Shown here: positions 22,775-29,280 of the stretch, in pieces
Layout of the letters: every line of letters begins with the position of its first letter
How positions within the stretch are numbered: the first letter of the stretch is position 1
Origin: Bacteroidota bacterium
GTDB lineage: Bacteria; Bacteroidota; Ignavibacteria; Palsa-1295
Direction of reading: 5' to 3'
DNA length: 64,000 bases
NCBI GenBank assembly: GCA_030706745.1
Contig: JAUZNX010000007.1
Coordinates: forward strand, 1 to 64,000
Made by a program: the position numbers and the translations under genes
Notes under the pieces: model-generated
Database searches by the model: none
What the model was told of the DNA's origin: nothing
The model's input: only the letters and a program-made list of their open reading frames with translations

Positions 22775-24382
22775 CTATTTGATGACTGTTACCATTCTCG
22801 TGACTTGTGCATCACCGGCACGCATCGATAGCACATAAGCCCCCGTTGGCACATTGGCAGCTATCGGCAGCGCATAACTCCCGGCGATGAATGGCTGCTC
22901 GGTGATCAGCTGCACAATTCGGCCATCCATGGATGTCATTTCAATCTTGACATACGCATTCCGTGGCAGGTCAAAGGCAATCGTGCCGGTTGCTGGCAAT
23001 GGATTCGGATAGACGGCAAGCGACAGCGGGAGCGTGTTTGACTTCGCAACCCCAGCCTGCGGCTTGAACAGCCCCGGAAATGGCTCGAGCGTGCTATCCT
23101 TCATCACCGTCCGCGTGTCATCCAGCGATAACCCAAACCAATCGGTGAGCACCGCGGCATAGACTGTGCGATAATCGATTTGCCACGCGAGATCACCATT
23201 CGCATCCAGATGCGAAAGATCGGGAGTCTGACCGAAGACCGCGGAAGCGACTGCTGCGCCAAAGACAAACTGCACGGACGCAGCACCATGATCGGTGCCG
23301 TAACTCGCGTTCTCTTGCGGACGTCGACCAAACTCGCTCATCGTCATTCCGACGACACGCTTCGAAACGTCCATCCCGGCAGCATCGAGTTGAAGCAGAT
23401 CGTACTGGAACTGCGCGACTGCATCCGAGAGTGAGTGCAACAAATTCGAATGAGCACCCTGGCCGGTCCCTCCGGGACTTGCCTGACTCACGTGAGTATC
23501 GAATCCTCCAAGACTAACGTAATAGATTCTCGTATCCAATCCACCCGCAATCAGCGCAGCAACGCTTGCCATTTGCTGCGAGAAGCTATCGGAGCCATAG
23601 GCTCCCTTCAGCTTGGCTTTGCCGGCAGTGTATGCATCCTTCACGCGTTGCGCGTAAATATTCGAGCGGTTGGCGATATCTTGTACAAACGCATACTCCG
23701 TCGCATATCGAGTTCCGGTGGCCTGATCGTCGAGCGTATCGTTGGCCGCGCTGAGACCGCCAGCCTGCAAGCTTGGATTCGCAACCTCGATGCCCATGCG
23801 GCCCTTCTCACTGGTCAGCGCCAGTGAGAATCCTCCAAAGTTGATCGCGAGGGGATCGGCCGGAAGTGAGTTTGGAAAATTGGGATACTGCCGTTCGAGA
23901 AATCGGCCGAGCCAGCCGGTGTCGAGCACATCCTGTGCGTTGCTATCATTGATACCCGAGAGCCAGATGTCCGTCGATCGAAAATGCGAAAGATTGGGAT
24001 TATCGTAGCCAATCCCTTGAATGATCGCGAGCGTGCCGACGCCAAGCATTCCGGCAAAGCCCGTTTGTCCATTGCCACCGGCCCGGGCAAGACCAGGGTT
24101 CAGATAGCCGTTGCCATAGTTATACAGATTCTGTTTCAGGATTCCGATGCCATTGGTCGGATCGCGAAGCACATAATATTGCGGGTCATCGGCTGGTACC
24201 ACCGTGTTCAGCCCATCATTGCCGCCGAACATTTGGACAAAGATCAGAATCTTGTCATTGCTCGCATCGAGTTGCGCGAGCAAATGCAGTGGCGAAGAGG
24301 GCAGCGCATAGATCTTGTCCAGCAGCACGGGCGTCACCGCCGCTGCTCCCAATGCTCCTTGAAGGAAGGTACGTCGTTTCAT
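22775..24382 (-). CDS. DUF1501 family protein with T9SS sorting domain
   Basis: The 535-residue protein begins with a twin-arginine-like leader (MKRRTFLQGALGAAAVTPV). The DUF1501 domain follows (about 40-430), with FVQMFGGNDGLNTVVP near the start, HFRSTDIWLSG, GGFDTHVSQ and MSEFGRRPQENASYGTDHGAA, a metal-site-like pattern of the alkaline-phosphatase/sulfatase superfamily. A C-terminal sorting domain (YPNPLPATGTIAFDL, GAYVLSMRAGDAQ) targets it to T9SS. DUF1501 proteins are nearly always paired with a DUF1800 partner, as here, and their role is not established. It starts 88 nt after the DUF1800 gene. Confidence 0.92.
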   Translation of the reverse strand: MKRRTFLQGALGAAAVTPVLLDKIYALPSSPLHLLAQLDASNDKILIFVQMFGGNDGLNTVVPADDPQYYVLRDPTNGIGILKQNLYNYGNGYLNPGLARAGGNGQTGFAGMLGVGTLAIIQGIGYDNPNLSHFRSTDIWLSGINDSNAQDVLDTGWLGRFLERQYPNFPNSLPADPLAINFGGFSLALTSEKGRMGIEVANPSLQAGGLSAANDTLDDQATGTRYATEYAFVQDIANRSNIYAQRVKDAYTAGKAKLKGAYGSDSFSQQMASVAALIAGGLDTRIYYVSLGGFDTHVSQASPGGTGQGAHSNLLHSLSDAVAQFQYDLLQLDAAGMDVSKRVVGMTMSEFGRRPQENASYGTDHGAASVQFVFGAAVASAVFGQTPDLSHLDANGDLAWQIDYRTVYAAVLTDWFGLSLDDTRTVMKDSTLEPFPGLFKPQAGVAKSNTLPLSLAVYPNPLPATGTIAFDLPRNAYVKIEMTSMDGRIVQLITEQPFIAGSYALPIAANVPTGAYVLSMRAGDAQVTRMVTVIK

Positions 24383-24470: not shown

Positions 24471-26045
24471 TTAACAGAGTTCAAAATCAGGCAACGATGC
24501 CATGTCGCTCAGCAAATCGCGAAGATTGCGCGCCGCGGTCGCGTCACTACCGTTCAGGATGCTCGCCCATTCGTAGACTGGCGCTCCCGCCGTAAGCTTT
24601 GAGGCAAATGTCGTTTGTCGCTCGGTCGATAGTGGACGTGGAAGCAGTAGTTGCCCAATCTGCGTCACCAGCGCGTTCGCATCCGTGTAATTCGCAAACT
24701 GTTTGATAAAGGCGATCGCAGATGCATCATCCAACGTTTGAATGACCGCGCTCGCTTGCGTGCCCCGAATGGGATATGTATTCGTGGTGATCCAATCGTG
24801 ATAGCCAGTCCATCCCGAGACGTTCGGCGGCTGGAAGAGTTGTTGCCCGATTGCAGTCATATTCGCATCCACCGGATAGCTCGCGACGAGCTGCTTCGCC
24901 ATTCCGATCACATACTCCGCCGGCGACTTGATCTGCGCGCCAAGATTGGCATTGTCGAAAAAATGGGCGGACTTCAGGAGTGCCGAAATGACCGGCTTGA
25001 TTTCCCAATTACTTTGGATCAGGAGAGCCGCCATAGCGGCGACCACGGTTTGATCTACCGAAGCCGGGTCACTATAGACAAAGAACCGGTATAGCTTCGT
25101 CGAGAGAAACGTCGCAATGGCTGGACTCCGCTGTGCAAAGAGCACATCGACCAGCCGATCGATCTCGTTCTTCTTGACCAGAAATTCCGTATTCGTCGAG
25201 GTATCGATCGGTGGAAACTGCTGGCCCAGATACGTCTTGCCGCTGGTATCGTGATCGGCAGGACTAAAATACGTATTGAAAATACCATGCGGAGCGGGCG
25301 CATCTGTATACTGACCAACGCGCCAGCCGCTCAGGATCTTTGCCGCCTGCTGGACATCGCCTTCAGTGTACTGACCGAGTCCGCAGGTATACAGCTCCAT
25401 GAGCTCCCGCGCATAATTCTCATTTGGATGGCTCCCGCTATTCTCGTTGCCACCCAGGAAGATAAGCATGGCGCCATCGAGCGTGACAGCCTTTACCAGG
25501 TCTTGAAAATTGCCTAACGCGTTCGAGCGAAAGAGCTCGTTTTGCCGGTACAGAAGTGGTGCTATTGTATAATCGAGATTGCCGAGATCAAATTGTGTCG
25601 TGAAGTGACTGCTCCAGAAGAAGGTCATCTTCTCCTGAATCGAAGTCTGGGCATTCAGTTGCAGAGCAGACCACCAGGCTCGTAACGCTGCCGCATCGGC
25701 TGCCCACTGACCAAATATTCCGTACTGCGCCTGAATCGCAAGCGGGTATGGGTTCTCGGTTTGGTCATTCGCGGCGGCTGGGGGTGTTGGAGAAGTTGTT
25801 CCAGACAAAAGCAAATCAACCGCGGTCCCTGGATCGGCATGTGTGAGGAGTGTCTGGATGTCCGCCCACGTCGGGCCCATCATTGTTCGGCGCAGCAAGT
25901 GCCCGGCCCGATAGGCATCCCACGGCGAGTTCGCGTCCGGTACAAACGGATCCAAGCCGGATGTCAGCGGTGCGAGGCGATTCTTCGAGGAGCTTGGTTT
26001 CCAGGCCGTAAGAAATCCACGGCGTGAAATAGCAGTCTGCGACAT
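24471..26045 (-). CDS. DUF1800 family protein
   Basis: The 524-residue protein is placed to start at 26045 (MSQTAISRRGFLTAW), giving a twin-arginine-like leader; an upstream in-frame extension to 26126 has no supporting features. It carries DUF1800 marks: AYRAGHLLRRTMMGPTWADI, MTFFWSSHFTTQFD, NENYARELMELYTCGLGQYTEGDV, AKILSGWRV and a PNVSGWTGYHDWI motif near 430. The ENxARELxELxxLG segment is diagnostic of the family. It is the first gene of the surface operon, followed by its usual partner DUF1501. Cellular role is unknown; export through Tat is inferred from the leader. Confidence 0.92.
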   Translation of the reverse strand: MSQTAISRRGFLTAWKPSSSKNRLAPLTSGLDPFVPDANSPWDAYRAGHLLRRTMMGPTWADIQTLLTHADPGTAVDLLLSGTTSPTPPAAANDQTENPYPLAIQAQYGIFGQWAADAAALRAWWSALQLNAQTSIQEKMTFFWSSHFTTQFDLGNLDYTIAPLLYRQNELFRSNALGNFQDLVKAVTLDGAMLIFLGGNENSGSHPNENYARELMELYTCGLGQYTEGDVQQAAKILSGWRVGQYTDAPAPHGIFNTYFSPADHDTSGKTYLGQQFPPIDTSTNTEFLVKKNEIDRLVDVLFAQRSPAIATFLSTKLYRFFVYSDPASVDQTVVAAMAALLIQSNWEIKPVISALLKSAHFFDNANLGAQIKSPAEYVIGMAKQLVASYPVDANMTAIGQQLFQPPNVSGWTGYHDWITTNTYPIRGTQASAVIQTLDDASAIAFIKQFANYTDANALVTQIGQLLLPRPLSTERQTTFASKLTAGAPVYEWASILNGSDATAARNLRDLLSDMASLPDFELC

Positions 26046-26230
26046 AAGACAATCCGATAGTGGCGGCGCGATGGACGATCCCCTGACGACTTCAGGGCTT
26101 ACCCATAGAGGGCGGCAAAATGGCAACGCGAAAGATCAACCGAACGGCCGAGCGGATTGATTCCGATCAACGCGATAACGACATAATTCCACCCGTGGGA
26201 AGAACACGGTGTGGCGAGCAAACTCACATT

Positions 26231-26440
26231 TTAGTATTCGTCTGAATGCATTGATGAACGATCAGCCACGCCGTTCGAGGCATAGGGATCGATATCACCG
26301 AGATAGGACTCGATCATCCGCTCGATCAAGCGCACCTCGTTGAGTTCGAGCGCGACATAGATTGGCTCCCGCTCGCTCGTGCGCTCGGCGTCGCGGACTT
26401 TTTGGCTCAAGGCCATCAAACGGTCAAGAGTTGCGATCAT
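26231..26440 (-). CDS. Small acidic helical protein of unknown function
   Basis: This ORF of 69 residues starts at 26440 (MIATLDRLMALSQKVRDAE), preceded by a plausible GGAGAG ribosome-binding site 7-8 nt upstream. The sequence is strongly helical and rich in Glu, Arg and Leu, with no membrane segment. It sits beside the DnaA-box cluster, upstream of the DUF1800 gene. No family is recognised; coding is suggested by the ribosome-binding site and amino-acid composition only. Confidence 0.5.
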   Translation of the reverse strand: MIATLDRLMALSQKVRDAERTSEREPIYVALELNEVRLIERMIESYLGDIDPYASNGVADRSSMHSDEY

Positions 26441-26483
26441 CTGGGGTCTCTCCAAGTGGATGAGTCCTTGTGAAAGCGAGGGC

Positions 26484-26621
26484 TCATCCACAGCTTGTGA
26501 ACAAATGGCTGTGGACAAATATACGAATCTATTTGCCGGAATGCAATAGGTGCCCGTGAAAAATGAGCAGGATTCAGCAAATAGTTATCCACAATCTTAT
26601 GGTTACCCGTAGTTATCCACA
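26484..26621. other. DnaA-box cluster, candidate replication origin
   Basis: Two perfect DnaA boxes (TTATCCACA) lie at 26585-26593 and 26613-26621, in the same orientation and 28 nt apart. One-mismatch boxes lie at 26484-26492 (TCATCCACA, plus strand) and 26510-26518 (TTGTCCACA on the minus strand). The latter two form an inverted pair (TCCACAGC/GCTGTGGA). A weaker match is at 26496-26504. AT-rich DNA at about 26516-26535 could be an unwinding element. Genes to the left run mainly leftward and those to the right mainly rightward. The last two boxes overlap the end of the Rsm22-like gene. dnaA itself is not in the window. Confidence 0.55.
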
Positions 26622-27808
26622 CTTCCGGAGCATTCGGCATTACTAATAACTCGGACTTCCGATTCGTGCCCGATCTTGACATCGTGTTCCCTCACCTCGA
26701 CTCCCGAGATCTGGACCAGATCGTATCGCTCCAGCTTCGTAACGGGTCGATTTGTCGTTGACTTATCTCGTTTGTTCATGACATATTCCCACCGCCCAAG
26801 CTCGTTGCAGATGAACCCACGATGGCGCCCCTTTTCATCGAACCGCTCGCTGACGACACGCCCAACAGAGCTGAGATCGCGGTGGGCCTGGAAACTGTCC
26901 GAGAGGTTCACATCCTCACGGAGAAAGACTGCATACGTCGCTTTGAGCGAGAGCCGAAGTGTCCCGGCAACATCATCGATCGTCTGGATAAAGCCGGGGC
27001 GCTTCCAAGGTATCTCGGTATGGCACCAGTTGTTCTCATCCTCGAGTGCCGGGCAGTCGCCGCTCCGACAACACGGCGAGAACACATGGAAACCGGCTGC
27101 GACCATCCGGTCCCGAAATCTCAGCGCCCGGCGAGAGACTTCTCTGCTCGCCGGCTCGATCATGATTGCCGCGCCGTGCTCCGCGAGCGATCGATCGATG
27201 AATGCAATTATTTCCGCATCCTGCATTTCATCTATTTCCCCAAGGACATTCATCAACGAGATTAAGTCGAATGTGCGATCATCCTTCGCGATGGCAAGCG
27301 CGGTTAAATCGATCTGGGATGTCGATACGCGAAGATCGAGTGACATTTTTAGATTAGATGCAAACTGCCCGACCGTCCGCAGATTTCGCGCGAGCTTATC
27401 CCGCGCATCGGCGTGAAGTGTACTGATGGCTGGCTGTTCACGTTCGAGATAGGTCGCCAGCCCCCAAATTGCCGCGCCCGTCCCCGTACCAAGATCGAGA
27501 TGGTGAAGCTCCGAACGATTCGCGAAAAATCCGGAGCGTGCAAGCTCGCGTAATGGCGGCCAAAGCTTCAGAAGATTGGTCGTAGTATAGTAGAGAAAAT
27601 ACGCCTGCTGTTGATCCTCATCGCGCAAGTATTCGGAGCGAACAAATTCCTCGCGCGACTTCGTCAGTCCCTCCGAAAGTTGGATCACATCCCGCGCAAT
27701 CCTCGCAAGCTTCGTTCGGGTCTCCTTGCTTGCTGGTCTATCGTCGATAAGCCGCAGGCCAAGAACCTCTTCGAGCGCTACGGTGTACTCTCGTGGCAGT
27801 TGTAACAT
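26603..27808 (-). CDS. Rsm22-family class I methyltransferase with C-terminal cysteine cluster
   Basis: The 401-residue protein has a helical N-terminal region, a SAM-binding Rossmann domain with HLDLGTGTGAAIWGL (about 103-117), and a C-terminal cysteine motif (SPCCRSGDCPAL...NWC) characteristic of Rsm22/METTL17-like proteins. That motif would bind a metal or Fe-S cluster. Homologues act on the small ribosomal subunit; the bacterial substrate is not established. Its start codon overlaps the start codon of divergent mtgA in a shared CATG. Its last codons are part of the DnaA-box cluster. It reads toward the origin-like region. Confidence 0.82.
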   Translation of the reverse strand: MLQLPREYTVALEEVLGLRLIDDRPASKETRTKLARIARDVIQLSEGLTKSREEFVRSEYLRDEDQQQAYFLYYTTTNLLKLWPPLRELARSGFFANRSELHHLDLGTGTGAAIWGLATYLEREQPAISTLHADARDKLARNLRTVGQFASNLKMSLDLRVSTSQIDLTALAIAKDDRTFDLISLMNVLGEIDEMQDAEIIAFIDRSLAEHGAAIMIEPASREVSRRALRFRDRMVAAGFHVFSPCCRSGDCPALEDENNWCHTEIPWKRPGFIQTIDDVAGTLRLSLKATYAVFLREDVNLSDSFQAHRDLSSVGRVVSERFDEKGRHRGFICNELGRWEYVMNKRDKSTTNRPVTKLERYDLVQISGVEVREHDVKIGHESEVRVISNAECSGSVDNYG

Positions 27809-28595
27809 GGAAACCGCAACACGTCAAACAACCAGTGTCGCTCCGCAGCTTGCCGCCGGAGGAGAACTTCCAGCTCAAACGATTGCGCCGCGCAAACGCC
27901 GTTGGTATTCATGGTTGTGGCGGATTGCGCTGATTGCGCTCGCGATTCCCATCGTTCAAGTCGCCGCACTGCGGTTCATCAATCCGCCCGTCACGACGAT
28001 GATGGTCTTCCGAATGTTCGATCATTTGTTCGCCGGCGAGCGGATCACATGGTCGCATACAAATCTTGGTCGCAACGAAATTTCGCCATATCTCTACTCC
28101 GCCTTCGTTGCCGGAGAGGACCAGCGGTTCTATCAGCATCATGGCTTCGATCTGGTCGAGATTGAAAAGGCACAGCAATCTCACGCCCGACACCCGAACC
28201 GCCCCATGCGCGGCGCGAGCACGATCTCGCAGCAAGTCGCAAAAAATCTTTTCCTGCCACCATGGCATAGCTTCATTCGCAAAGGTGTCGAAGCCTATTA
28301 CACCGTGCTCATCGAGTTCATGTGGCCGAAAGAGCGGATCCTCCAGATGTATGCGAACGTGGCGGAGTTCGCACCGAATGTCTATGGCGCGGAGGAAGGT
28401 GCACTATTCCACTTCAAACGTCATGCAGGCCAACTCACACAGCAGCAGGCCGCGCAAATGGCCTCGGTGCTCCCGAACCCAAAGCGATGGAGTGCTTCCC
28501 ATCCATCTGCGTATATCCAGCGCCGGGCTGCCCGTATCCTGCGCCAAATGCGCGGCATCCCGAGTGATGAAGATGAAGATGGCGAACCGGATTAG
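27807..28595 (+). CDS. mtgA: Monofunctional peptidoglycan glycosyltransferase MtgA
   Basis: The 262-residue protein has a short cytoplasmic tail, one membrane helix (about 37-57) and a GT51 glycosyltransferase domain: AGEDQRFYQHHGFD with the catalytic Glu, GASTISQQVAKNLFL, WPKERILQMYANVAEF and GAEEGALFHF. It polymerises lipid II into glycan strands at the inner membrane without a transpeptidase domain. The start at 27807 overlaps that of the divergent Rsm22-like gene by two bases; no later start would keep the membrane anchor. It converges with the sigma-factor gene, 13 nt from its stop. Confidence 0.94.
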   Translation: METATRQTTSVAPQLAAGGELPAQTIAPRKRRWYSWLWRIALIALAIPIVQVAALRFINPPVTTMMVFRMFDHLFAGERITWSHTNLGRNEISPYLYSAFVAGEDQRFYQHHGFDLVEIEKAQQSHARHPNRPMRGASTISQQVAKNLFLPPWHSFIRKGVEAYYTVLIEFMWPKERILQMYANVAEFAPNVYGAEEGALFHFKRHAGQLTQQQAAQMASVLPNPKRWSASHPSAYIQRRAARILRQMRGIPSDEDEDGEPD

Positions 28596-28608: not shown

Positions 28609-29280
28609 CTATAGCGTGACGCTCACCGCGCGTAAAACGTGATGGACGATCGCATCACAGCGCGCATTACCGAATTCATAAAGATCCGGGCCTACGTAAT
28701 CGCGAAGCCGGGCTTGCAGTAGTCTTCGCGAGCGATGAAGTCTGACCTTCACATTCGATTCTGAAATTCCAAGACTTCGGGAAATATCGGCGATACTCAT
28801 GTCCTCGATTTCGCGCATGACATAGACAATGCGGTGATCCTTCGGCAATTGTTCGATAGCGTGTTCGATGACACTCCGCAATTCGCGGCGCAGCAACTCC
28901 CGCTCGGGCGTCGGCGATGGAGAGGCTATGTGTTCGGCTGCATCGAGACCCAGACCCTCTAATTGTCCTTGCTCGCTAATGGCCGGCCGTTTCTTTCGAA
29001 GGAACATCAGACCCTGATTGATGAGAATGCGTGTCAGCCAGGTTGCAAACGCACTCTCCCCGCGAAATTGCGGAAGCTTCAGATATGCCTGAATATACGT
29101 TTGCTGCAGCAGATCGTCACACTCGATATCCGGAATGCCCAGGCCGCGCGCAATCCGGTAGAGCCGCTGATTGTATCTCTTCATCAACACCGCAAAAAGT
29201 GCAGCCTCTCCGGCGACGATTCGCTGGGCCAATTCCTGGTCGGTCGGTCCCTTCTGTACGCTGGGCTTCTTAATCGGCAT
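28609..29280 (-). CDS. ECF-type RNA polymerase sigma factor
   Basis: The 223-residue protein has sigma region 2 (about 30-95; DDLLQQTYIQAYLKLPQFRGESAFATWLTRI in two overlapping parts) and sigma region 4 (about 135-190; LPKDHRIVYVMREIEDMSIADI and a helix-turn-helix LGISESNVKVRLHRSRR). These define the sigma-70 ECF (RpoE-like) family. There is no obvious anti-sigma gene next to it. It is divergent from a locus with a frameshifted lipoprotein, a small membrane protein and a DUF2231 protein, where a 26-bp motif is repeated before two start codons. It may control that locus. Confidence 0.9.
   Translation of the reverse strand: MPIKKPSVQKGPTDQELAQRIVAGEAALFAVLMKRYNQRLYRIARGLGIPDIECDDLLQQTYIQAYLKLPQFRGESAFATWLTRILINQGLMFLRKKRPAISEQGQLEGLGLDAAEHIASPSPTPERELLRRELRSVIEHAIEQLPKDHRIVYVMREIEDMSIADISRSLGISESNVKVRLHRSRRLLQARLRDYVGPDLYEFGNARCDAIVHHVLRAVSVTL

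Follow-up and report, generated by a model that had tools for sequence, protein, structure and literature searches.

It is common, albeit not obligatory, for dnaA to lie next to oriC, and B. subtilis has intergenic DnaA clusters outside the origin, e.g. between gcp and ydiF. As a transcription factor, DnaA is known mainly from a few models, such as E. coli, B. subtilis and Caulobacter (see also PMC8203912).

In B. subtilis, the small-protein gene sda has several DnaA boxes in its promoter and is activated by DnaA (PMC4447404, PMC8203912). The dnaA, mioC and rpoH promoters of E. coli are instead DnaA-repressed, with DnaA sites in the promoter regions, and E. coli DnaA prefers pairs of boxes with a 2-3 bp gap (PMC11317965). 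Loci of the datA/DARS type act on the availability of DnaA in E. coli (PMC12371093). In the open literature, we found no paper joining DnaA boxes, Bacteroidetes and transcription factor.

Here, we describe a cluster of DnaA boxes in an uncultivated Bacteroidota. The window, i.e. the whole stretch of DNA that was analysed, is 64,000 nucleotides long and is the start of a 206-kb contig. We find it likely that the cluster serves as the operator of a family-specific small gene with a DnaA-regulated promoter, and not as a chromosomal origin.

The nearest functional analogue appears to be sda, which the locus broadly resembles. Both have a small-protein gene with a multi-box promoter region away from the origin, and DnaA, the transcription factor at sda, is predicted to act as one here. 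However, DnaA activates sda, whereas a box in the window covers the -7 element, making repression more likely. The phylum and the promoter type are also different, and no homology between the proteins is claimed.

With the repressed promoters of E. coli, the locus shares DnaA sites in the promoter region and, as a prediction, DnaA as the repressor. The E. coli targets are mostly double boxes with a 2-3 bp gap, while the upstream pair here (boxes A and B, Table 1) is 28-31 nt apart. We saw no convincing double box of the E. coli type in the window, where one member of the only close pair has four mismatches. As the A/B pair lacks the 2-3 bp gap, the binding mode may differ from that of E. coli DnaA.

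The box cluster and its promoter

All four boxes listed by the first-pass annotation are present: two perfect TTATCCACA with a start-to-start distance of 28 nt, one TCATCCACA on the forward strand and one TTGTCCACA on the reverse strand, see Table 1. We simulated 2000 sequences of 64 kb with the first-order composition of the contig: they contain on average 0.31 perfect 9-mers each, and not one (0/2000) has four boxes of no more than one mismatch inside 138 bp. The 3.81-Mb genome contains 24 exact 9-mers, and the pair in the window is the only one in the same orientation separated by no more than 60 bp. Of the parts of this genome that were examined, none has a denser DnaA-box cluster. The number of boxes, their sequence and their conserved geometry support the proposal that they are putative DnaA-binding sites.

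Table 1. Features of the locus. Offsets are given relative to the -7 element.
Feature	Position	Strand	Description
DnaA box A	26613..26621	+	perfect TTATCCACA; along the promoter TGTGGATAA; offset -99; overlaps the 3' end of the Rsm22-like gene
DnaA box B	26585..26593	+	perfect TTATCCACA; offset -71
DnaA box C	26510..26518	-	TTGTCCACA; orientation opposite to A and B; overlapping both the -7 element and the point where transcription is expected to start
Weak box	26496..26504	-	TTGTTCACA; 2 mismatches; offset +18; in G000 and G001 only
DnaA box D	26484..26492	+	TCATCCACA; along the promoter TGTGGATGA; offset +30
-33 element	26543..26546	-	TTGC; TTG invariant in 8/8 genomes; spacing to the -7 element 19 bp in the window
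-7 element	26516..26523	-	TATATTTG; fits the Bacteroidota consensus
Small gene	26231..26440	-	69 aa (26234-26440), MIATLDRLMALSQKVRD...; family-specific
Rsm22-like methyltransferase gene	26603..27808	-	upstream neighbour of the promoter; stop at 26603-26605
Monofunctional transglycosylase-like gene	27726..28595	+	neighbour
Sigma-factor gene	28609-29280	-	right of the boxes
DUF1800 gene	24471..26126	-	next gene, same direction; possibly co-transcribed with the small gene
DUF1501 gene	22775..24382	-	with C-terminal sorting domain; after DUF1800, same direction

The 162-bp gap between the Rsm22-like gene and the 69-aa gene (26441-26602) contains a leftward promoter, TTG-N19-TATATTTG. The consensus for the -7 element in Bacteroidota is TAnnTTTG (cited in PMC7366714). 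The boxes lie on or near this promoter, at -99, -71, +4 and +30 around TTGC-N19-TATATTTG, as would be expected of a DnaA-regulated promoter. Box A sits within the last codons of the Rsm22-like gene, whose nearest named relative is from a Candidatus Kapaibacterium MAG, with 74% identity. On this basis, the DNA of the window is assigned to a Kapabacteria-type bacterium within Bacteroidota.

In G003, G004 and G005, too, the small gene is followed by a DUF1800 gene, and in G002 this gene is orthologous and collinear. In G001, a part of the DUF1501 gene lies downstream of the small gene on the same contig. The best matches of the DUF1800-DUF1501 pair in G007 are about 40 kb from its small gene.

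The small protein is present in 13 out of 13 genomes of the family and in none of the 378 other genomes of the class. We found no Pfam or NCBIfam family for it, nor any sequence match in the PDB. The AlphaFold model is a helical hairpin with two main helices and has a low confidence (mean pLDDT 66), i.e. it is too weak for the function to be inferred from it.

Conservation of the proposed operator

The regions upstream of the small gene were compared in twelve genomes, mostly fragmented assemblies. G010 was left out of the offsets, as its gene start was not recognised by the script. Offsets were measured from the A of ATATTTG (the -7 element) and read without gaps; the alignment that defined the boxes was also used to describe them.

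Conservation of the boxes in relatives, suggested earlier as a check of the cluster, holds for a part of the family. Eight genomes keep them at near-fixed offsets, seven from the genus of the window (G000-G006) and one from a sister genus (G009). In the four genomes from two other genera (G007, G008, G011, G012) the gene and the promoter core are kept without boxes.

Among the box-bearing genomes, box A is always at -99 or -100, and the inverted box C always at +4 with one or two mismatches, ATATTTGT.CAC being invariant in its alignment. Box B is found at -69 to -71 in six genomes and is missing in two; the spacing from A to B is 28-31 nt. At +30, the position of box D, six of the eight have a box-like site with no more than two mismatches. 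Per alignment column, the information drops to about 0.1 bit between A and B, while box A has 0.9 and the stretch of the -7 element and box C 1.5-1.7. Using a model of the 148-bp region, we obtained one full-length match per genome in all eight (E <= 7e-23), and among the matches listed the weaker ones are partial and mostly cover the core promoter.

The gene upstream of the promoter is not the same in all these genomes. The Rsm22-like protein was not found in G003-G006, and the small gene is preceded by an HPr kinase gene in G003, by rho in G005 and, farther off and recognised from the same protein sequence, by rho in G006. The boxes and their offsets are unchanged in the congeners with HPr kinase or rho upstream. 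A change of the upstream neighbour thus leaves the operator in place, and we conclude that the boxes are part of the promoter and travel with the small gene. An arrangement of sites that is conserved with its gene, here in eight genomes with varying upstream genes, is what a DnaA-regulated promoter would show.

In the four genomes without DnaA boxes at this promoter, GTGCTCCC/GGGAGCAC palindromes flank the same promoter core. G009 has both a GGAGCACG stretch and the boxes upstream of its small gene. We do not claim the GTGCTCCC...GGGAGCAC palindromes as a substitute operator at -100, the upstream copy being within the Rsm22-like coding sequence.

Origin, titration site or chance

The first-pass annotation had read the cluster as a possible chromosomal origin away from dnaA. 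An oriC of the genus within the promoter region of the small gene is, in our view, very improbable. An origin of this kind would share with the locus an intergenic cluster of boxes, and in its favour this one is the densest of the DNA examined and has the only close pair of exact boxes genome-wide. The skew minimum on the contig of the congener G002, spanning ~10-55 kb, also includes its copy at 20.7 kb, so that in G002 an origin could lie in that neighbourhood; the flat stretch of skew there runs well past the conserved 15-kb block. On the 206-kb contig of the window, GC skew amounts to -2.6% to the left of the boxes, to -3.1% in the 26 kb that follow and to -2.0% in the remainder; its sign does not change at 26.5 kb, the outcome that the first-pass annotation had named as refuting an origin. 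A switch of gene direction had been placed at the cluster. A mostly rightward run does exist, from about 29.4 kb, with leftward genes again from 42 kb, but the switch is not at the boxes, as the Rsm22-like and sigma-factor genes to their right are leftward. By eye, no strikingly AT-rich unwinding region is seen between the boxes. The cluster is further tied to a single promoter at near-fixed offsets, and two sister genera lack boxes at this place; both the skew and this linkage speak against an origin. There is no dnaA nearby, as had been observed, the single match being at 318 kb on contig C1, which is not the contig of the window. Using dnaA as a marker for the origin failed, no box cluster being found in the 20 kb around it, and no origin was located in the stretches of this genome that were sampled. 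If the cluster is not an origin, it could mainly be a site that titrates or inactivates DnaA, like datA, or reactivates it, like DARS, and several strong boxes outside the origin would suit such a site. The non-origin clusters of datA, DARS and the intergenic regions of B. subtilis are similar in this respect, but that of the window is promoter-anchored. A geometry fixed on the -7 element is needless for a sink, and a better candidate exists in the same family, the 181-bp element described below; we regard the titration reading as improbable. Titration might occur as a side-effect, but it would not account for how the boxes are anchored on the promoter. A chance cluster, or a by-product of the end of the Rsm22-like coding sequence, would agree with the overlap of box A and the last codons. 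It did not arise in the simulations, congeners with another upstream gene than the Rsm22-like one still have the boxes, and judging from the sequences this reading is already refuted by positional conservation.

In the sampled contigs of G007, a well-assembled relative, the skew switches from positive to negative at C5:110-180 kb, and no switch from negative to positive is seen inside the large contigs. The short G-rich motif AGGGRAG, which is strand-biased with the GC skew in G007 and is possibly a polarity motif, is rarer in the G000 genome than its reversed control (477 vs 704 sites). It was discarded as a marker of replication polarity, as among the matches listed the polarity on C1 is mixed.

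The 181-bp element is a DnaA-box-like element located beyond the transglycosylase gene, in G007 at C2:50548-50728, where it lies between convergent genes, and also in G008, G010, G011 and G012. The span from the first to the last motif is exactly 181 bp in four genomes and 183 in the fifth, and in two genomes the element has a double box with a 3-bp gap (TAATCCACAAAGTTATCCACT). Weak counterparts were seen at G000:C2:480102-480302 and in G002, G003, G004, G005, G006 and G009. In six genomes of the genus of the window they are between two conserved convergent genes, one for a ~400-530-aa protein and one for an alpha/beta hydrolase; in G009 these two genes are near but not immediately flanking. 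We rejected the idea that the cluster in the window is a displaced copy of this element, because in this genus weak counterparts of the element exist at other places. It was also rejected as a skew-defined origin, having no inflection at it in G000 C2, G004 C4 or G007 C2. With its location between convergent genes in G007, the element resembles datA, DARS and the B. subtilis intergenic clusters more than the cluster of the window does; its role may be datA/DARS-like or that of an origin.

Proposed regulation of the small gene

In the operator reading, the 69-aa gene, and possibly also DUF1800 and DUF1501 after it, would be transcribed from the leftward promoter. The predicted DnaA sites are A and B, some 70-100 bp upstream; C, over the -7 element and the transcription start; and D, which lies a short way into the transcript. 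Cooperative binding could start from A and B, whose sequences are the strongest. As box C lies over the -7 element wherever the operator is present, DnaA, probably as DnaA-ATP and cooperatively between A/B and C/D, would most likely keep RNA polymerase off the promoter. Expression of the small gene would then be expected whenever little free DnaA-ATP is present, e.g. once initiation has taken place, and would thereby be coupled to the replication cycle. Points against the operator reading are the wide spacing of A and B, the mismatches in box C, the loss of box B from two genomes, the activating role of DnaA at sda, and the use of one set of sequences both to identify the elements and to describe them.

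Within this reading, repression is somewhat favoured over activation. Activation of the same promoter through A and B, as at sda, is a variant that we think unlikely: the position of A and B upstream of the promoter and the precedent of sda in B. subtilis (PMC4447404) are consistent with it, but the location of box C over the -7 element in 8/8 genomes favours occlusion.

Implications

The locus warns that origins are poorly predicted from clusters of boxes alone. If DnaA does control this promoter, a multi-box DnaA operator at a family-limited gene in an uncultivated Bacteroidota is a concrete target for studies of the coupling between replication and expression, and the sister genera with and without the operator offer a natural comparison. 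More tentatively, the lineage may have a gene that reports replication status, i.e. a small protein under DnaA control in part of the family, with an operator gained or lost between sister genera around an unchanged core promoter. It might then be an independent Bacteroidota counterpart of B. subtilis Sda.
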